A DNA stretch of 55,644 nt. Origin: Sphaerochaeta halotolerans (GTDB lineage: Bacteria > Spirochaetota > Spirochaetia > Sphaerochaetales > Sphaerochaetaceae). Under the pieces are notes generated by a model, which was not told where the DNA came from, did no database searches, and worked only from the letters and a program-made list of their open reading frames with translations. Positions 45,984 through 55,644 of the stretch are shown here, in pieces. Where the stretch lies: the NCBI RefSeq assembly GCF_003429665.1, contig NZ_QUWK01000004.1, forward strand, positions 110,665-166,308, written 5' to 3'. Made by a program: the position numbers and the translations under genes. Position 1 is the first letter of the stretch. The number at the start of each line of letters is the position of its first letter.

Positions 45984-47096
45984 TCACAGCACTTCAGACG
46001 GATGTTTCAAAACATAGTGGGTGCTTCGTCCCTGTCCTTTCTGTTCTAGAAGTCCCTTTTGCACCAAATCCTTGATCTCTCGTATTGCTGTATCTTGTGA
46101 CACCTTACAGATCTTTGCCCATTTTGATGATGACAGATTACCCTTGAAATCTTCTAAGAGCAATGAAAGCATTTTCCTTTGGGTATCCGTAACAGTGTAT
46201 TGCGCTGCTTTCTGCCACAATCTTGCTTTTATCAGGACACTGTCTACAGTACTTGTTGATGCCTTTATTGCATGTGAAAGGCAATCGAGGAACCAGAGAA
46301 GCCATCCTGTGATATCGAGTGTGCCCTTTTGTGTTTTCTCAAGGATTGCATAGTAGCCATCTTTTTCCTTCTGGATTTGTGCTGACATACTATAAAAGCG
46401 TTTTCCTGTACCATCAGATCTGGAAAGCATCATATCAGTGATGGCTCTTGCAAGTCTTCCGTTCCCATCCTCGAATGGGTGGAGTGTGATGAACCAAAGG
46501 TGTGCAATTGCAGATCTTACGATAGGGTGTTCCTCTGATGGAGCATTGATCCACGACAAGAATTGAGAAAGTTCATAGGGGAGTTGTACTGCCTTAGGAG
46601 CCTGGAAGTGTACGATTTCCATAGGCCCCTGACTTCTTGAAACTACTTGCATACGTCCTTCTTCATCACCTCTGAGTTGCCCGACGTGTATCCTTCTTAT
46701 TCCACTAAACCCTGTGGGGAATAAGGAGGCATGCCAACCAAAGAGTCTCTCAAGCGTAAGTGGACTATTGTAGTTCTCTATGGCATCGAACATCATGGAT
46801 ACAATACCATCGATATGATGGTCAGAAATTTCTGATTGAGCGTATGGAATATTCAGATGTCTGGCTACCGAAGAACGCACTTGTCCATAATTCAAGTGTT
46901 CGCCTTCAATGGCACTGGAGCTGATGATGTTCTCTGAGACTACATGCCAATTCGATTCTCTCTGCAGTTCAAATCCAAGACTTTTCATGCGACCCAGAAC
47001 TTCTCCCTGCAAAAAGGTGGTGTTTGCTAGAGGTTCAAGTAAGGCTTCTTTTTCCCAGGTAAAATGTGGCCATGTTGGATTTTCATAGATATACAT
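45984..47096 (-). CDS. Fic-family protein with DUF4172-type N-terminus and winged-helix C-terminus
   Basis: About 370 residues. YIYENPTWPHFTW starts a DUF4172-like domain. SSAIEGE (about 60-66) fits the S/TxxxE(G/N) inhibitory helix that blocks ATP binding in class II Fic proteins. The active loop HPFEDGNGRLAR (about 207-218) is complete, so AMPylation activity is expected. A C-terminal winged-helix (about 300-365) suggests DNA binding. GGAGG precedes the ATG at 47096 by six bases. The promoter overlaps a 13-bp palindrome, so it may autoregulate. Confidence 0.92.
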   Translation of the reverse strand: MYIYENPTWPHFTWEKEALLEPLANTTFLQGEVLGRMKSLGFELQRESNWHVVSENIISSSAIEGEHLNYGQVRSSVARHLNIPYAQSEISDHHIDGIVSMMFDAIENYNSPLTLERLFGWHASLFPTGFSGIRRIHVGQLRGDEEGRMQVVSRSQGPMEIVHFQAPKAVQLPYELSQFLSWINAPSEEHPIVRSAIAHLWFITLHPFEDGNGRLARAITDMMLSRSDGTGKRFYSMSAQIQKEKDGYYAILEKTQKGTLDITGWLLWFLDCLSHAIKASTSTVDSVLIKARLWQKAAQYTVTDTQRKMLSLLLEDFKGNLSSSKWAKICKVSQDTAIREIKDLVQKGLLEQKGQGRSTHYVLKHPSEVL

Positions 47097-47113
47097 ATAT
47101 AACCTCCGCAATA

Positions 47114-47146
47114 TTTGCGTAGATTATACTACCTAATCTACGCAAA
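47114..47146. promoter_or_regulatory. 13-bp perfect inverted repeat, operator of fic
   Basis: TTTGCGTAGATTA and TAATCTACGCAAA, perfect, separated by 7 bp. It covers the spacer and -10 of the fic promoter, so a bound dimer would block transcription. The winged-helix in Fic itself is a candidate binder. Confidence 0.8.
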
Positions 47147-47151
47147 TGCAA
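47123..47151 (-). promoter_or_regulatory. fic promoter
   Basis: On the minus strand TTGCAT, 17 bp, TATAAT, embedded in the palindrome. Confidence 0.75.
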
Positions 47152-47218
47152 TGAGGAAAGTAATAGATAATAGTTCATATAGCTATTTGTGATTAAACTG
47201 GTAAACCAATACTTTGAG

Positions 47219-47227
47219 TGGTATAAT
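47219..47227 (+). promoter_or_regulatory. Candidate cas operon promoter (extended -10)
   Basis: TGGTATAAT is a perfect extended -10; the -35 is weak. Transcription from about 47234 gives a 134-nt cas9 leader that is antisense to the whole tracrRNA. Confidence 0.5.
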
Positions 47228-47235
47228 TTGGCTAA

Positions 47236-47331
47236 CAAACAAAGAAGCCTGCAAAAGCAAGCTCCCTGTACGCACATTGCGTGGTCCCGAAGGACGGTTT
47301 GAATAAATTTTTATTTGAACACTAGGTGTTG
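47236..47331 (-). ncRNA. tracrRNA
   Basis: Minus strand. The anti-repeat (47330-47313) is AACACCTA-GTGT-TCAAAT. It pairs with the repeat start GTTTGA-GA-TAGGTGTT as a 6-bp lower stem (one G-U), a 2:4 internal bulge and an 8-bp upper stem, the geometry of S. pyogenes. Downstream are a GTCC-TTCG-GGAC hairpin, an ACGCA/TGCGT hairpin and a terminal hairpin (GAGCTTGC / GCAGGCTTC, loop TTTT) followed by a T-rich run that terminates transcription. Length about 95 nt. Ends are inferred. Confidence 0.9.
47237..47264 (-). terminator. Terminator of the tracrRNA
   Basis: Minus-strand stem GAGCTTGC / GCAGGCTTC with one bulged T and loop TTTT, then TTTGTTTG. Confidence 0.8.
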
Positions 47332-47336
47332 AGTTA

Positions 47337-47365
47337 GTCTTACACCAATAGATAGGAGATGTCAA
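47337..47365 (-). promoter_or_regulatory. tracrRNA promoter
   Basis: On the minus strand a perfect TTGACA, 17 bp, TAAGAC. Transcription would begin at about 47330, right at the anti-repeat. The -35 overlaps the cas9 start region and its ribosome-binding site. Confidence 0.6.
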
Positions 47366-47367
47366 GG

Positions 47368-50300
47368 ATGAATACAGCTGTCAGCAAAGATTCCCGTGGG
47401 TCTGATTATTACCTAGGACTCGATATTGGAACAGCCTCTGTTGGTTGGGCCGTGGCAAATACAGATTATGAGCTGGTAAAGGAGCATAGGAAATATCTCT
47501 GGGGGGTAAGACTCTTTGATACTGCAGATACTGCTGCTGAAAGAAGGCTTCACCGAGCAGCACGTCGTAGGCATCAGAGAAGACTGCAACGACAAAGGCT
47601 TTTGAAAGAGATTTTTGAAGATAAAATTAGTGAAGTAGACCCTCATTTTTTTGAACGATTGAAGGAGAGTTCTTATCATAGAGAAGACCGAAGTGGAAAC
47701 TTCCTTTCTACTCTGTTCAATGATGAATCATTCAAAGATACTGACTATTTTGCGAAGTTCCCAACAATCTTCCATTTGAGAAGTCATCTTATTCATCATC
47801 CTGAGGAAAGACCTGACATTAGAATTCTCTATCTGGCTATTCATAGCATCTTGAAGCATCGTGGTCATTTCTTATTCCCAGGGGAGTCTCTGGAGAGTAT
47901 TTCTTCATTCAGCCTCCTTTTTGACGAGTTACTGAAGAACATTGAAACCTCACTACAATGCACACTTCATGTTTCATGTACGCCCGAGACCTTCGGAACA
48001 ATACTGAAAAAGAAAAGAAGGACAGATAAAAAGAATGATTTGCAGGAAGTTCTAACACTCACCCGTACAACAGAGGAAGAGATAGAGGAAACACCAAAGA
48101 AACTTACATCAGAGTTGATAAAAGCGCTCTCAGGGACTCCGTTTTTACTTTCTATGCTTTTCGAAAACGATAGTTATAAAGATAGTGAACAAGACAAGAT
48201 TGAGTTTGATAAAGAAGGTTTTGAAGACTTGAAAGAGTCCATTGAGGTGTTGCTTGAGCCGGAAGAATACGCCCTGATAGAGACTCTTGAAGGAATATAT
48301 AACTGGACACTTTTGTCAGATATCTTAAACGGAGAGAAGTTTATCAGTGATGCAAAAGTAGCTTCCTACAGAAATCATAAAGATGACTTGAAGCAGCTAA
48401 AGCTATTGGTAAAAAAATATGCAGGGAGTGCATACTACAAGGCGTTCAAGGATCCTTCTATACAAAACAACTACGCCCACTATATTGGAACAGGGAATAA
48501 ATCCGGAAAGAAGGTTCAGGTTGCTCACAAGGGTAAATGTTTGCAAGAGGATGTAAATAAATATTTTCACAATCTCCTGAAGCCCTATCAGAATGATGAG
48601 GATAGAGACTTGGATAATATGCTGGAAAAGCTAGAGCAGAAGAGCGCTCTTCCAAAACAGCGAGTAAGAGACAACAGGGTGATACCCCACCAGCTACATT
48701 TGAAAGAACTGCAGATCATCCTTGAAAATGCAAAAGCATATTACCCATTTTTGACAATTCCAGATGATGATGGATACACACCAACACAGAAAATTATCAG
48801 CATGATGACCTTTCGCATTCCTTACTATGTAGGGCCTCTAAATACCTCTCATATGGAGAAAGAGGGGAAGGAAGGATTCTGCTGGATGGTTAGACAACAG
48901 GGAAAGGAAGATGTGCCAATCTTTCCTTGGAACTGGACTGAGGTGGTCGATAAAAATGCTTCGGCAGAGAAATTTATCACAAGAATGACTAATTCTTGTA
49001 CCTATCTCTTCAACGAGGAAGTATTACCAAAATTCTCACTGCTATATAACCGTTATATGGTTCTGAATGAGTTGAATAATCTTAAGGTAAATGGCGAACC
49101 CATATCGGTTGAGTTGAAACAGAAGATTTACAATGAGCTGTTTCTGCATTCTGGCAAGAAAACAATTACTTTGAAGATGTTACAGAAATTCCTGGTGGTT
49201 AATAATATTGTTAATAAGGGAGATGTTACAACGATCGAAGGAATTGATAACGGTTTTGCAAATTCCTTAAAAAGCCACATTGATTTTGCACCATATCTTG
49301 AGGCGAATATACTTTCTGTAGAAGATGTTGAGAAGATTATCGAATGGAAAGCCTACTACGTTGATGATGCAACAATTTTAAAAGAGAAAATTACACAAGA
49401 GCTTCATGAAAAGCTTACATCAGAACAAATTGATGATATTACCAAACTAGTTAGGAATTATAAGGGGTGGGGGCGTTTGTCACGGGCTTTTCTTGAAGAT
49501 ATCTATCATGTAGATCGTGCAACCGGCGAAGGATACTCAATTATCCATATGATGTGGGAAACGAATGAGAATCTCATGGAGTTGCTGAGCAGTAAATACG
49601 ACTATCTGGATGAGATTCAGAGAATTAATAATGAAACACTTATCAACAAGAAATTTTCCTACGAATCATTGGTCAGACCACTTTCTGTCTCTCCTCCTGT
49701 CAAGCGACAGATCTGGCAGACGCTTCTCATCGTACATGAGTTGAAAAAAGTAATGGGAAAAGCGCCTAAGAGAGTGTTTATCGAGATGGCTCGTGAAGAA
49801 CGTGAGAAAAAACGAACCACAAGCAGGAAGGAGAGTCTTCGCATACTCTATGATCGTTGTAAGAATGATATCTCCTTCAATAAAGCATTGCTGGAAAGTC
49901 TTGATACAAAGACTGATACTGAGTTGAGGAATGACAGACTCTATTTTTATTACACACAGATGGGACGATGTCCCTATTGTGGTGGTAAAATCGAACTTGA
50001 TCAGATGAATAATACTCAGCTCTACGATATCGATCATATTTATCCTCAATCGCTTATTAAAGACGACTCTTTGAAAAATAGGGTACTAGCGCATAAGGCA
50101 TGTAATGGCGAGAAAGGTAATAGCTATCCAATCAATCCACAGTGGCAGAATACGATGATTGGATTTTGGAAAGTGTTGCTAGACCGTAGTCTTATTTCCA
50201 AGGAAAAATATGCTCGTCTTACCCGCACAACTCCTCTAAGTGACGAAGAGCTTTTTGCGTTCATCAATAGGCAATTAGTAGAAACTCGGCAAAGTACTAA

Positions 50301-51567
50301 GGTTGTTGCGAGTATCTTGAAGAATCTGTTCCAGGACGAGGGGACTGAAATTGTGTATGTGAAGGCAAGGAATGTTTCAAGTTTCAGAACCGACTTTGAA
50401 ATTAAGAAATCAAGATTGGTAAATGATCATCACCATGCACATGATGCGTATCTGAATATTGTTGTTGGAAATGCATACCATACCAAGTTTACAGGGGATG
50501 CGCGTAATTTCATCAAGGAGCTAAAAAGAGGGGATCAGTATTACAATGCCAGTAACATTTTCTCACGCTCTATTCAACGTAATGGAAGATTAGCCTGGAT
50601 TGCTGATGAAAGGTATGACGCTAATAAAGGTAGACCTAAAAGCGAAAAGCAAGAGACCGGTACCATTGCGACAATCAGAAAAATGTTACGTAACCATCAG
50701 GTCTTGGTGACAAGGCAAGCGGTGGAGGTATCAGGAGCTCTGTTCAAGTTGCAGCCACTAAGGAAGAAAAAGAATTTGCTTCCTTTAAAAGGTTCAAGTC
50801 AAACTCTACAAGACACTACTAAGTATGGAGGATATAATGCGCCTGCGACGGCCTACTTCGCATTAGTTCAACATGAAAAGAAAGGTAAGGAAGTGAGGCA
50901 ATTTGTTCCTGTGCCCATCCTTTATGCTGAACTGTTCAAGCAGAACCCTGGAACTCTTTTGAAATACTGTGAGGAAGAACTTGATTTGATTAATGCTAAG
51001 ATAGTAATTCCTCAGATTTTGCTTCACGAACTTGTGCAATTGAAAGGATATACTATGAGCTTAAGTGGTATTACTGGACCTCAGACTGTTGCGAATAATG
51101 AGATTCAACTTGTACTTTCAGATGAGGATTATGACTATGTAGCCCAAATAGAAAAATACCTTTCTCTATTGAAGAAGGTGAAGGATCCCGAAGTACAAGA
51201 GAATGCTGAGATTCTTGCCGAGAGTCTCCATATCTGCAAGCAGGATAATCTCACTTTGTATGAACTACTGTTAGCCAAGGAACGAGGTTCTATTTACAGG
51301 TATCGTCCTGCGAACCAAGCAAAATTTCTGGAAGAAAAAAGATCTATATTTGAGTCTTTGGATATAAAGGGACAGTGTGAGGTATTAGTTCAGATCATCA
51401 ATCTTTTTACCTGCACCCCGGAAAGTGCAAACTTAACGAAACTAGGAGGAGGGTCAAGTTCCGGTATTGTGAAATTCCAGTCTCAGATTACTGATAAAGA
51501 AGCTAGGTTGATTCATCAATCTCCCACTGGTATTTTTACTAAGTCAAGACGTGTATATGAGATATGA
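47368..51567 (+). CDS. cas9: CRISPR-associated endonuclease Cas9, type II-A (Treponema denticola-like)
   Basis: 1399 residues from ATG 47368, which has AGGAG nine bases upstream; an ATG three codons earlier (47359) abuts that site. RuvC-I is YYLGLDIGTASVGWAV with catalytic D19, then an Arg-rich bridge helix (RRLHRAARRRHQRRLQRQR). RuvC-II is FIEMAREER. The HNH domain YDIDHIYPQSLIKDDSLKNR has catalytic His near 890, with CPYC and a later C as possible zinc ligands. RuvC-III is HHHAHDAYLN. The C-terminus ends IHQSPTGIF as in type II-A Cas9. It resembles TdCas9 throughout (for example HIYPQS-KDDS-NRVL). PAM is not predictable here. Overlaps cas1 by four bases. Confidence 0.98.
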   Translation: MNTAVSKDSRGSDYYLGLDIGTASVGWAVANTDYELVKEHRKYLWGVRLFDTADTAAERRLHRAARRRHQRRLQRQRLLKEIFEDKISEVDPHFFERLKESSYHREDRSGNFLSTLFNDESFKDTDYFAKFPTIFHLRSHLIHHPEERPDIRILYLAIHSILKHRGHFLFPGESLESISSFSLLFDELLKNIETSLQCTLHVSCTPETFGTILKKKRRTDKKNDLQEVLTLTRTTEEEIEETPKKLTSELIKALSGTPFLLSMLFENDSYKDSEQDKIEFDKEGFEDLKESIEVLLEPEEYALIETLEGIYNWTLLSDILNGEKFISDAKVASYRNHKDDLKQLKLLVKKYAGSAYYKAFKDPSIQNNYAHYIGTGNKSGKKVQVAHKGKCLQEDVNKYFHNLLKPYQNDEDRDLDNMLEKLEQKSALPKQRVRDNRVIPHQLHLKELQIILENAKAYYPFLTIPDDDGYTPTQKIISMMTFRIPYYVGPLNTSHMEKEGKEGFCWMVRQQGKEDVPIFPWNWTEVVDKNASAEKFITRMTNSCTYLFNEEVLPKFSLLYNRYMVLNELNNLKVNGEPISVELKQKIYNELFLHSGKKTITLKMLQKFLVVNNIVNKGDVTTIEGIDNGFANSLKSHIDFAPYLEANILSVEDVEKIIEWKAYYVDDATILKEKITQELHEKLTSEQIDDITKLVRNYKGWGRLSRAFLEDIYHVDRATGEGYSIIHMMWETNENLMELLSSKYDYLDEIQRINNETLINKKFSYESLVRPLSVSPPVKRQIWQTLLIVHELKKVMGKAPKRVFIEMAREEREKKRTTSRKESLRILYDRCKNDISFNKALLESLDTKTDTELRNDRLYFYYTQMGRCPYCGGKIELDQMNNTQLYDIDHIYPQSLIKDDSLKNRVLAHKACNGEKGNSYPINPQWQNTMIGFWKVLLDRSLISKEKYARLTRTTPLSDEELFAFINRQLVETRQSTKVVASILKNLFQDEGTEIVYVKARNVSSFRTDFEIKKSRLVNDHHHAHDAYLNIVVGNAYHTKFTGDARNFIKELKRGDQYYNASNIFSRSIQRNGRLAWIADERYDANKGRPKSEKQETGTIATIRKMLRNHQVLVTRQAVEVSGALFKLQPLRKKKNLLPLKGSSQTLQDTTKYGGYNAPATAYFALVQHEKKGKEVRQFVPVPILYAELFKQNPGTLLKYCEEELDLINAKIVIPQILLHELVQLKGYTMSLSGITGPQTVANNEIQLVLSDEDYDYVAQIEKYLSLLKKVKDPEVQENAEILAESLHICKQDNLTLYELLLAKERGSIYRYRPANQAKFLEEKRSIFESLDIKGQCEVLVQIINLFTCTPESANLTKLGGGSSSGIVKFQSQITDKEARLIHQSPTGIFTKSRRVYEI

Positions 51568-52436
51568 GTTGGCGAATAGTTGTTATATCAAAGCGTGCAA
51601 AGCTTGAGTATAAGATGAATTATCTCGTGGTCAGAGATACTGAAATGCTTCGGATTCATTTGAGTGAGATCCATACGTTGATCATAGAGTCAACAGCAGT
51701 ATCTCTAACTGCTATGTTGGTTGCGCAATTACAGGAGCGCAAGATTAATATCATTTTTTGTGACAACCATCGTAATCCATTGAGTAATGTTCTTCCTTTG
51801 TATGGTTGCCATAATGCCACAGAAAAGGTGAAAAGTCAGATTGCTTGGAAGAGAGAGATCAAAGATCAGGTATGGACACGAATAATTTACGAGAAAATTA
51901 CAAATCAAGCAAATGTATTAAAGCAGACACGTCCTGACTTAGCTGAGAAGCTTACAGGGTATGCAAGCTCAATAACAGCAGGAGATAGGACAAACCGTGA
52001 AGCGCATGCAGCAAAGGTATATTTTAATGCACTCTTTGGTAATGAATTTTCTAGGCATAAGGATTCGCCGATCAACGCTGCATTGAATTATGGGTATACA
52101 ATTCTCTTATCTGCCATCAACAGGGAGATTGTCATAAATGGATATCTTACCCAACTAGGAATATTCCATGACAATGCTTTTAATCAATTCAATCTTTCAA
52201 GTGACCTTATTGAGCCATTGCGATCGCTTATAGACAAGGAGGTTGTCTCATGGGGATCCTTTGAAGAATTTACTAGTAATCAAAAGATGCGCCTAGTGGA
52301 TGTTATGAATTGTCAGGTAAATATGGCTGATAAACGTATGCAATTCGTGAATGCACTGGGAATATATTGTCGTAGTGTCTTGGAATCCTTAAGTGAACAG
52401 AATCTCGATTTGATTCAGTGTATGGAATATGAATAG
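51564..52436 (+). CDS. cas1: CRISPR-associated protein Cas1
   Basis: 290 residues, integrase subunit of spacer acquisition. The metal-binding residues fall in NREAHAAKVYF (Glu), and GIFHDNAFNQFNLSSDLIEPLR (His, Asp, Glu-type). Overlaps cas9 by four bases and cas2 by eight, so the cas genes are translationally coupled. Confidence 0.97.
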   Translation: MSWRIVVISKRAKLEYKMNYLVVRDTEMLRIHLSEIHTLIIESTAVSLTAMLVAQLQERKINIIFCDNHRNPLSNVLPLYGCHNATEKVKSQIAWKREIKDQVWTRIIYEKITNQANVLKQTRPDLAEKLTGYASSITAGDRTNREAHAAKVYFNALFGNEFSRHKDSPINAALNYGYTILLSAINREIVINGYLTQLGIFHDNAFNQFNLSSDLIEPLRSLIDKEVVSWGSFEEFTSNQKMRLVDVMNCQVNMADKRMQFVNALGIYCRSVLESLSEQNLDLIQCMEYE

Positions 52437-52752
52437 GTACCGTTTTATGAGAGTGATTGTAATGTTCGACCTCCCAGTTTTGACCAGTGCTCAACGGAAA
52501 GCATATCGGAAGTTCCGAAAATGGCTAGTTGGTGCCGGATTTGTTATGTTGCAGGAGTCAATCTATTCAAAGCTGGTATTGAATCCAACTGCAGCGCAAT
52601 TCTTGAAAGCACAAATACGTAGTCAAGAAGTCAAAGAAGGAATCGTTCAGGTCATGGTGATTAGCGAAAAGCAATATGAGAACATAGAGTTCATTGTAGG
52701 GGAAGTTCAGTCTGATACCCTTTCGGATATGAGGAGGCTTGTAATTCTGTGA
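52429..52752 (+). CDS. cas2: CRISPR-associated protein Cas2
   Basis: 107 residues. Ferredoxin-like fold with the first-strand Asp in VIVMFDLPV and the SIYSKLV segment typical of Cas2. Forms the integrase core with Cas1. Its stop overlaps the GTG start of csn2. Confidence 0.96.
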   Translation: MNRYRFMRVIVMFDLPVLTSAQRKAYRKFRKWLVGAGFVMLQESIYSKLVLNPTAAQFLKAQIRSQEVKEGIVQVMVISEKQYENIEFIVGEVQSDTLSDMRRLVIL

Positions 52753-53426
52753 AACTTATTCATAACCAAATTGAAACACAGATATACTTCGATTGTGAAA
52801 CGTCCTATACGCTAGTTGTTGAATCGCCCATTGTCATGAACAGGCTTGTATCTGATCTAAAATCACAAATTCGGGGTGAAGAAGGCGGGTTTGTATATTC
52901 AGAGAATAATCTTAAAGAAGTAGATATTGCTGCTGAATGTGAACTGATTATAGATCCGTTTGTGTCTGCAGACGACAACAAGAAATTCGCCTCCAAATTA
53001 TTACAATCTTTAAAAATGGTTGCCAATCAGGAGGACTTCTTTGAACGAACAGCTCAGATAAAATCTGCTTTGTTGCAGTATGCTTTGACAATCATGCAGG
53101 ATTGCGATGAATCTCTCACATATAAGGATGAGATAGATACCGGTACATTGCTGAAGGTTTTTAGTTTTATGTTTGATTTTGATGATCCCAGCCCAATTGA
53201 AAATCTCGTTACCTACGTTAAAGTTGCAAATAAGTACTTGGAAAAGAACCTTTTTGTTTTAGTGAACGTGAAGAGTTTTTTTACTGATGAAGAGCTCAGC
53301 TATCTTGTTGATACTATACATGGAATGAAGTGTAATGTTCTTTTTTTGGAGAGTTATTACCATAAACCCTTTGATAATAAGGAAAAATATAGTATAATAG
53401 ATATAGATCAATGTGAGATTTTCTAG
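52749..53426 (+). CDS. csn2: CRISPR-associated protein Csn2
   Basis: 225 residues, starting at GTG overlapping the cas2 stop. Csn2 forms DNA-end-binding tetrameric rings needed for acquisition and defines subtype II-A. Similarity is seen in overall layout (KLIHNQIETQIYF start, LEKNLFVLVNVKSFFTDEEL region, and a C-terminal YSIIDIDQCEIF) and position; it is the most divergent cas gene. Confidence is helped by gene order cas9-cas1-cas2-csn2-leader. Confidence 0.9.
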   Translation: MKLIHNQIETQIYFDCETSYTLVVESPIVMNRLVSDLKSQIRGEEGGFVYSENNLKEVDIAAECELIIDPFVSADDNKKFASKLLQSLKMVANQEDFFERTAQIKSALLQYALTIMQDCDESLTYKDEIDTGTLLKVFSFMFDFDDPSPIENLVTYVKVANKYLEKNLFVLVNVKSFFTDEELSYLVDTIHGMKCNVLFLESYYHKPFDNKEKYSIIDIDQCEIF

Positions 53427-53524: not shown

Positions 53525-55644
53525 GTTTGAGATAGGTGTTATCTCATAGGGTAGCTGACCTTGTCGTTGCTTTTATTTGTCCAGTCTTGAGTTTGAGATA
53601 GGTGTTATCTCATAGGGTAGCTGACCACAGCTCGTCGTATAGGAGGGGAACATGGAGTTTGAGATAGGTGTTATCTCATAGGGTAGCTGACCACCTCCAA
53701 AGGTAACAAGGTAACAAGGTAAGTTTGAGATAGGTGTTATCTCATAGGGTAGCTGACCACGACTTCGTTTCTGATTACATGCACATAGGTTTGAGATAGG
53801 TGTTATCTCATAGGGTAGCTGACCTGATGCCAAGGTCCATCGCCTTCTCCAGGAGTTTGAGATAGGTGTTATCTCATAGGGTAGCTGACCGTCGCGTAGA
53901 TTGCGAGATGCGCCAAGGCAGTTTGAGATAGGTGTTATCTCATAGGGTAGCTGACCCCTGCCTGCCGATGAGGGTCAGCATGTTGTGTTTGAGATAGGTG
54001 TTATCTCATAGGGTAGCTGACCAAAATAGTAGGCATCTTTACTCCTCCTTGCGTTTGAGATAGGTGTTATCTCATAGGGTAGCTGACCTTAAACCAATCT
54101 TTGTATCTTTTTGTTTCTGTTTGAGATAGGTGTTATCTCATAGGGTAGCTGACCCCACTTACGGTGATGATGCCGAGTGCCGATGTTTGAGATAGGTGTT
54201 ATCTCATAGGGTAGCTGACCCCTACGGCAAATAGGAGACAGGACAATGGGGTTTGAGATAGGTGTTATCTCATAGGGTAGCTGACCCCTCCGAAGCTGAC
54301 TGTGCGAAAATCTTCTGTTTGAGATAGGTGTTATCTCATAGGGTAGCTGACCCCCTTATTGTGGGAATGAGCTTGTCCCATGGTTTGAGATAGGTGTTAT
54401 CTCATAGGGTAGCTGACCGGGTACAGACGCACAAAACAGGGCCTTTCAGTTTGAGATAGGTGTTATCTCATAGGGTAGCTGACCAATAGGTACAATCCTT
54501 TCAGGAGCAATGAGGTTTGAGATAGGTGTTATCTCATAGGGTAGCTGACCCGGGTCTTAAAAACTATAAACGTGCTTATCGTTTGAGATAGGTGTTATCT
54601 CATAGGGTAGCTGACCAATTATCACCAAGCAGTGTGATGAAATCTCGTTTGAGATAGGTGTTATCTCATAGGGTAGCTGACCTTAAACCAATCTTTGTAT
54701 CGTTTTGTTTCTGTTTGAGATAGGTGTTATCTCATAGGGTAGCTGACCAGGGAGTCCATGCTGCAAAGCAGTTGATCGGTTTGAGATAGGTGTTATCTCA
54801 TAGGGTAGCTGACCGATAAACAGGGAGAAATGATATCTCTCTGAGTTTGAGATAGGTGTTATCTCATAGGGTAGCTGACCTCTATGGTGAGACAGTATAC
54901 TCTTTGCTTGGTTTGAGATAGGTGTTATCTCATAGGGTAGCTGACTCCGAAAGTTGTAAAAATGTACAAGGTATCGGTTTGAGATAGGTGTTATCTCATA
55001 GGGTAGCTGACTTGTCGTTCACGTTCTTCTGCAACCATACACGTTTGAGATAGGTGTTATCTCATAGGGTAGCTGACTTTGACACCGGCATATCCCAACC
55101 TGCGATATGTTTGAGATAGGTGTTATCTCATAGGGTAGCTGACCACTGATACCTTCCCGTCCGATGGTTCTTGGGTTTGAGATAGGTGTTATCTCATAGG
55201 GTAGCTGACCACAGATTGACAGCGCTACCAGTTATCAGCAGTTTGAGATAGGTGTTATCTCATAGGGTAGCTGACCGCATCCCGCCGGCCTTGGCCGTCA
55301 TGTACAGTTTGAGATAGGTGTTATCTCATAGGGTAGCTGACCTTTTTTCTTCAATCAAATTCTCATCCCTATGTTTGAGATAGGTGTTATCTCATAGGGT
55401 AGCTGACCCAGAGCCTGAAACAGCAAAGGGACCCTTTGGTTTGAGATAGGTGTTATCTCATAGGGTAGCTGACCTTACAGTTGCCTGCCTTACTTGTACA
55501 TGCTGTTTGAGATAGGTGTTATCTCATAGGGTAGCTGACTGTGTCTACTCTCTTTGGTGACACAGAGGTTGTTTGAGATAGGTGTTATCTCATAGGGTAG
55601 CTGACTATGAGAATGGTTCACTTAATCCCAATCCTTGTTTGAGA
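53525..55644 (+). CRISPR. Type II-A CRISPR array, 32 full repeats plus 8 bases of repeat 33; continues beyond the window
   Basis: Repeats start every 66 bp from 53525 to 55637. Each is 36 bp, beginning GTTTGAGATAGG and ending GTAGCTGAC plus C or T. Thirty-two spacers are all 30 bp. Repeats are otherwise identical. The final base is T in five repeats (those at 54911, 54977, 55043, 55505 and 55571). The anti-repeat match fixes transcription on the plus strand, so spacers nearest csn2 are newest. Spacers 9 (54089-54118) and 18 (54683-54712) differ by one base. Repeat number is a lower limit. Confidence 0.99.

Follow-up and report, generated by a model that had tools for sequence, protein, structure and literature searches.

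The CRISPR-Cas locus and its genomic surroundings

The window, i.e., the whole stretch of 55,644 nucleotides that was analyzed, originates from Sphaerochaeta halotolerans and comprises a full type II-A CRISPR-Cas locus consisting of cas9, cas1, cas2, csn2 and a CRISPR array. Its assignment to type II-A is based on operon membership, as TIGR01865, TIGR03639, TIGR01573 and TIGR01866 each scored above the cut-off. All four genes are located on the plus strand: the type II-A cas9 (47368-51567, 1399 aa; TIGR01865, 946.6 bits) is followed by a type II cas1 (51564-52436; TIGR03639), cas2 (52429-52752; TIGR01573) and the II-A-defining gene csn2 (52749-53426; TIGR01866, 152 bits). The array is found on the same strand (53525-55644), possesses 36-nt repeats (GTTTGAGATAGGTGTTATCTCATAGGGTAGCTGACC) and 30-nt spacers, and continues past the end of the window. 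Two of its spacers (54088-54117 and 54682-54711) differ at one base only, a pattern that would fit repeated sampling of one target or of a variant thereof. The end of csn2 contains a strong promoter-like site, TTGATA-16-TATAAT (53371-53398), which is a candidate promoter of the array.

The closest named relative of the window is Sphaerochaeta sp. S2, and the same locus was detected in three congeners with Cas9 identities of 83-88%, while no related locus was found in phage and viral collections. Comparison with known RNA families gave no match over the tracrRNA/cas9 region; the only matches in the window, to a tRNA and to a TPP riboswitch, lie outside it. The array spacers were compared to the cas region as well, and the best match (21/31) was at chance level.

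Upstream of the cas locus, a fic-like gene is encoded divergently on the minus strand (45984-47111). Consequently, cas9 requires its own promoter within 47112-47367. A 14-bp perfect inverted repeat (ATTTGCGTAGATTA / TAATCTACGCAAAT, 47113-47147) is located directly upstream of the fic-like gene, whose product shows an HTH match at its C-terminus, and this repeat is likely the operator of the fic-like gene. A version of it is retained in the congeners, ahead of the cas promoter region.

The tracrRNA gene opposite to the cas9 leader

The original prediction had placed a tracrRNA on the minus strand at about 47331-47236. We found it at about 47330-47236 (about 95 nt), where anti-repeat pairing, a terminator, sequence retained in relatives and a fold z-score of -2.98 identify it. 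Its 5' end reads AACACCUAGUGUUCAAAU and is followed by hairpins and the terminator. The anti-repeat (minus strand, 47313-47330) consists of upper stem, bulge and lower stem, AACACCTA-GTGT-TCAAAT, and its partner in the array repeat is GTTTGA-GA-TAGGTGTT (GUUUGA-GA-UAGGUGUU as RNA). Both form a duplex of the standard II-A lower stem, bulge and upper stem organization at -15 kcal/mol. The intrinsic terminator on the same strand (47267-47242), with an 11-bp stem and a T-rich tail, was detected as a terminator-like hairpin by a consensus scan that yielded a mean of 0.5 in shuffled sequences.

The putative tracrRNA promoter comprises the minus-strand -35 hexamer TTGACA (47360-47365) and, after a 17-nt spacer, the weak -10 hexamer TAAGAC (47337-47342; 3/6), with a shifted AAGACT preceded by TG as an alternative -10. 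Consensus matching predicts transcription to start at ~47330, 37 nt from the cas9 start, but given the weak -10 the true start may be shifted. At standard thresholds a sigma-70 scan called neither the tracrRNA promoter, because its -10 lacks the final T, nor the cas promoter, because it has no -35; both were scored separately.

The tracrRNA promoter is fused to the translation initiation region of cas9. The Shine-Dalgarno (SD) sequence AGGAG (plus strand, 47354-47358) is separated by a gap of 9 nt from the ATG at 47368; the -35 hexamer, read as TGTCAA on the plus strand, falls inside this gap, while the complement of the SD sequence sits between the -35 and -10 of the tracrRNA promoter, within its 17-nt spacer. 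A -35 overlapping the ribosome-binding site and start of cas9 had been predicted, and this holds in so far as both occupy the same initiation region, but the hexamer shares no letters with AGGAG or with the ATG at 47368. The sole start codon it overlaps is an in-frame ATG at 47359, which is an unlikely start and is out of frame in congeners. In a pattern search of the whole genome, 10 SD-TGTCAA-ATG sites including that of the window were found. Judged within the window alone the fused site is unremarkable; its positional conservation in relatives is far above that in shuffled sequences.

A candidate cas promoter was found on the plus strand at 47199-47227. It consists of the extended -10 element TGGTATAAT (47219-47227) and a poor -35, TGGTAA (3/6; 47199-47204), and resembles P2cas of Streptococcus agalactiae, a promoter at the tracrRNA 3' end that gives rise to an antisense leader. 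TGGTATAAT is the best plus-strand site in 46900-47368 and adjoins the tracrRNA terminator on its outside. Transcription is predicted to start at ~47234, i.e., at the tracrRNA 3' end, which would result in a leader of ~134 nt. No plus-strand site within the tracrRNA, or in the interval from there to cas9, scored above 7, and a cas promoter in either place was rejected. Thus the promoter proposed earlier at 47219-47227 is, by sequence, the only good one in the region. This promoter block is near-invariant in four congeners, and the sequence farther upstream differs. In one congener (L002) a ~26-nt tandem duplication (taccatagctatttgtgattaaactg), a possible regulator site, is found just upstream of the block; it is present as a single copy in the others.

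The geometry supports a cas mRNA carrying the whole tracrRNA complement, as had been proposed, and the comparison below extends this to the whole Cas9 clade. However, the leader would be antisense to the tracrRNA over its first ~97 of ~134 nt and not, as initially suggested, in its entirety: the ribosome-binding site is left out, as 24 nt separate the tracrRNA from the SD sequence.

Conservation of the fused promoter among cas9 loci

A census of cas9 upstream regions covered 93 loci, namely a spirochaete set (n = 32, including a single Cloacimonadota locus), a set from Clostridia and other bacteria (n = 30) and a set from Lactobacillales (n = 31). A fused promoter was defined as a minus-strand -35 matching at least 5/6 positions and a -10 matching at least 3/6, with a spacer of 16-18 nt and a distance of -1 to 4 nt between the -35 and the cas9 start; these distances may be slightly biased, because start codons of the relatives were chosen automatically by the best SD sequence, albeit independently of the -35. 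Promoter calls reflect consensus matching and the counted loci are related, so that the following numbers are not independent events: the fused promoter occurred in 23/32 loci of the spirochaete set (0.38 expected from dinucleotide shuffles), in 7/30 clostridial and other loci (0.47 expected) and in none of the 31 Lactobacillales loci (0.38 expected). If only the -35 (at least 5/6) is considered, 32/93 loci carry it within this distance, and these belong to Spirochaetota, Clostridia and Cloacimonadota.

If 23 non-redundant loci are aligned on the -35, TTGAC is near-invariant and a C/T-rich block corresponds to the SD complement. Agreement with the -10 consensus peaks at a spacer of exactly 17 nt, where 18 of the 23 loci match at least 4/6 positions (one at 16 nt, two at 18 nt). 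In the Cas9 clade (50 rows), presence of the fused motif depends on the position of the tracrRNA: the motif occurs in 29/36 loci with an adjacent tracrRNA, in 0/7 loci with the tracrRNA farther out and in 1/7 loci where the tracrRNA is distal or absent, the exception being TTTACA (5/6) in locus L052. Since the motif is nearly gone where the tracrRNA moved away, TGTCAA is to be regarded as a promoter element and not as a translation signal. On a Cas9 tree, built by a quick method with SH-aLRT support only, the corrected label of fused versus not fused is clustered, needing 8 changes compared to ~23 in shuffles. The fused layout seems to have been lost or shifted in several lineages, and is hence escapable. 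Two spirochaete genomes carry a damaged cas9: in one (G132; loci L013 and L048) the gene is broken, with its two parts ~39 kb apart, and in the other (G395; L046 and L047) it is interrupted by stops.

The position of the cas promoter was compared in the same manner. Among the non-redundant fused loci (n = 22), 15 had plus-strand promoter-like sites with a predicted start between -60 and +5 of the tracrRNA 3' edge (4.2 expected); such sites also occurred in 9/15 loci with a shifted tracrRNA (3.8 expected) and in 12/15 Lactobacillales loci (4.0 expected), ratios that are somewhat flattering, as the zone was chosen after viewing the binned profile and the non-redundant sets were hand-picked. Finer bins gave the same peak, the two next to the tracrRNA end containing 13 and 7 sites versus 2.6 and 2.8 expected. 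Inside the tracrRNA none of the 22 fused loci showed a promoter-like site (4.9 expected), and seven of them lacked a cas promoter-like site at threshold, such calls being noisy in A+T-rich DNA. A fully antisense cas leader, as predicted by consensus matching, thus seems to be general to II-A loci with an upstream tracrRNA and not special to the window. The arrangement had been called unusual. This does not apply to the antisense leader, given the enrichment of P2cas-like sites in every group and also in Lactobacillales; it does apply to the fusion if compared to streptococcal-type loci, yet the fusion is common in the Cas9 clade of the window.

Known systems, competing explanations and possible function

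In S. pyogenes, as in the window, the tracrRNA is encoded upstream of cas9 on the opposite strand, and the operon contains csn2. The S. pyogenes II-A system possesses a short and a long tracrRNA (tracr-S and tracr-L), and its cas promoter (Pcas) is the target to which tracr-L, acting as a guide, directs Cas9 (PMC11417352). The window, in contrast, has neither a guide match nor room for such a promoter between tracrRNA and cas9. In S. agalactiae strains without the proximal P1cas, immunity requires P2cas, which is located at the 3' end of the tracrRNA, and this promoter also suffices for it (PMC12216829). As predicted for the window, the S. agalactiae cas mRNA starts from the tracrRNA 3' end and its leader holds the tracrRNA complement; P2cas is repressed by CovR (PMC12216829), and an antisense RNA of ~100 nt that covers the 3' end of the tracrRNA had been observed in this species earlier (PMC4448216). 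Thus an antisense cas9 leader is already known and functional, and the working P2cas demonstrates that a fully antisense leader alone does not silence cas9. In contrast to the window, strains of S. agalactiae generally also possess P1cas and a long tracrRNA, and their tracrRNA-cas9 intergenic region spans 280-389 bp, so that the tracrRNA -35 lies away from the cas9 ribosome-binding site. The Lactobacillales II-A loci of the census share the enriched P2cas-like sites with the window, but none of the 31 has a -35 at -1 to 4 nt. Of the fusion of -35 and ribosome-binding site, and of its conservation, we found no report in the literature searched, a partial search covering few subscription papers; on an antisense or interference role of the tracrRNA toward cas9, the same search yielded the S. 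agalactiae work only.

We propose that the tracrRNA gene and the cas operon constitute an overlapping head-on pair, a layout common to a large Cas9 clade. The cas mRNA would start at the P2cas-like promoter outside the tracrRNA terminator and traverse the oppositely oriented tracrRNA gene over its full length before reaching cas9, whose translation start would be covered by the tracrRNA promoter. Neither function could shift without the other, because an indel between SD sequence and start would spoil both, and this mutual constraint would explain the narrow window of -1 to 4 nt. Polymerases on the two promoters would collide or block each other; tracrRNA and Cas9 output would therefore be coupled and Cas9 capped at the level of DNA and transcription. 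A limit on Cas9 levels through transcription interference or RNA pairing had been suggested originally, and interference appears plausible. Pairing of the RNAs, with the leader then being cleaved by RNase III, might contribute secondarily. Sequence and comparison show the geometry, its conservation, its dependence on an adjacent tracrRNA and where the cas promoter-like site is located. We consider the architecture taken alone highly probable, while a real regulatory effect appears slightly less probable than its absence, and interference of tracrRNA and cas transcription due to the head-on layout is about as likely as not. The explanation as a whole, architecture and regulatory coupling together, is the one we favor with some reservation.

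Alternatively, the layout might reflect compact packing without regulation: an overlap that arose early would have put both functions under a double constraint with no meaningful effect on Cas9, the units being weak or the promoters rarely firing together. This constraint alone predicts the tight -1 to 4 nt window and could explain the conservation; in addition, the predicted fold around the ribosome-binding site is hardly altered when the tracrRNA complement is masked, and immunity is effective in S. agalactiae strains with the antisense-leader promoter only (PMC12216829). However, the tracrRNA has been relocated in several lineages; the layout can therefore be abandoned and is nevertheless retained in most cases. 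Head-on promoters in such proximity usually interfere, which further counts against mere packing, and we regard this explanation as a serious but lesser possibility. Control by antisense RNA, in which unbound tracrRNA would hybridize to the cas9 leader and the resulting duplex would be cut by RNase III, appears unlikely. It could draw on ~95 nt of perfect complementarity and on the full RNase III encoded in the Sphaerochaeta genome, and loading of tracrRNA by Cas9 would relieve the pairing and result in positive feedback, as opposed to the negative feedback of tracr-L. However, the tracrRNA folds tightly on itself and should mostly be in complex with Cas9 or crRNA, and the leader is structured too. 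Since the duplex ends 24 nt before the SD sequence and masking leaves the predicted SD access unchanged, an action of the pairing on translation is less likely in these fold models. Masking of the ribosome-binding site by tracrRNA pairing was rejected, as no change of the fold was predicted.

One might also argue that TGTCAA between SD sequence and start serves translation or occurs there by coincidence, with the tracrRNA promoter lying elsewhere, given the poor -10 of the window and the nine other SD-TGTCAA-ATG sites in the genome. The sharp coupling to a -10 at 17 nt and the loss of the motif where the tracrRNA is not adjacent make this highly improbable. Autoregulation of the S. pyogenes type, by a longer tracrRNA that starts inside cas9 and acts as a natural single guide to the cas promoter, is extremely improbable, although related streptococcal systems use such a tracr-L guide (PMC11417352) and a short repeat-like TTGGTGT lies just upstream of the anti-repeat. 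In the window, no match of ~11 nt to the cas promoter beside a PAM was found, and the upstream minus strand (47340-47650) shares no word of at least 9 nt with the promoter region. The 37-nt gap between tracrRNA and cas9 likewise offers no cas promoter as a target, and the best further candidate for a minus-strand promoter, which lies inside cas9, has a much lower score than the fused promoter. Across the clade, 10-12-mers expected for a tracr-L-like guide were not enriched, a test that is possibly insensitive and hence weak evidence against such a guide, as the Lactobacillales comparison gave no enrichment either. The tracr-L guide was consequently rejected, and judging from these searches an S. 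pyogenes-style brake appears to be absent.

Returning to the head-on pair, the layout is kept in related loci of several phyla, and production of guide RNA and Cas9 is therefore probably physically coupled. One might speculate that a built-in transcriptional see-saw sets the dosage of Cas9 throughout its clade, which spans Spirochaetota, Clostridia and Cloacimonadota: a polymerase at the tracrRNA promoter, whose -35 doubles as the spacer of the cas9 ribosome-binding site, and a polymerase arriving from the P2cas-like promoter would exclude each other; this remains tentative, and we consider it rather doubtful at present. In practical terms, shifting or recoding the cas9 5' end in such systems destroys the tracrRNA promoter, and cas9 may be disturbed if the tracrRNA is expressed at its native position. 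The conserved overlap of tracrRNA promoter and cas9 start is a concrete and testable candidate for keeping Cas9 low without a tracr-L brake, and the see-saw, if true, would stand in for the guide-based tracr-L brake of streptococci.
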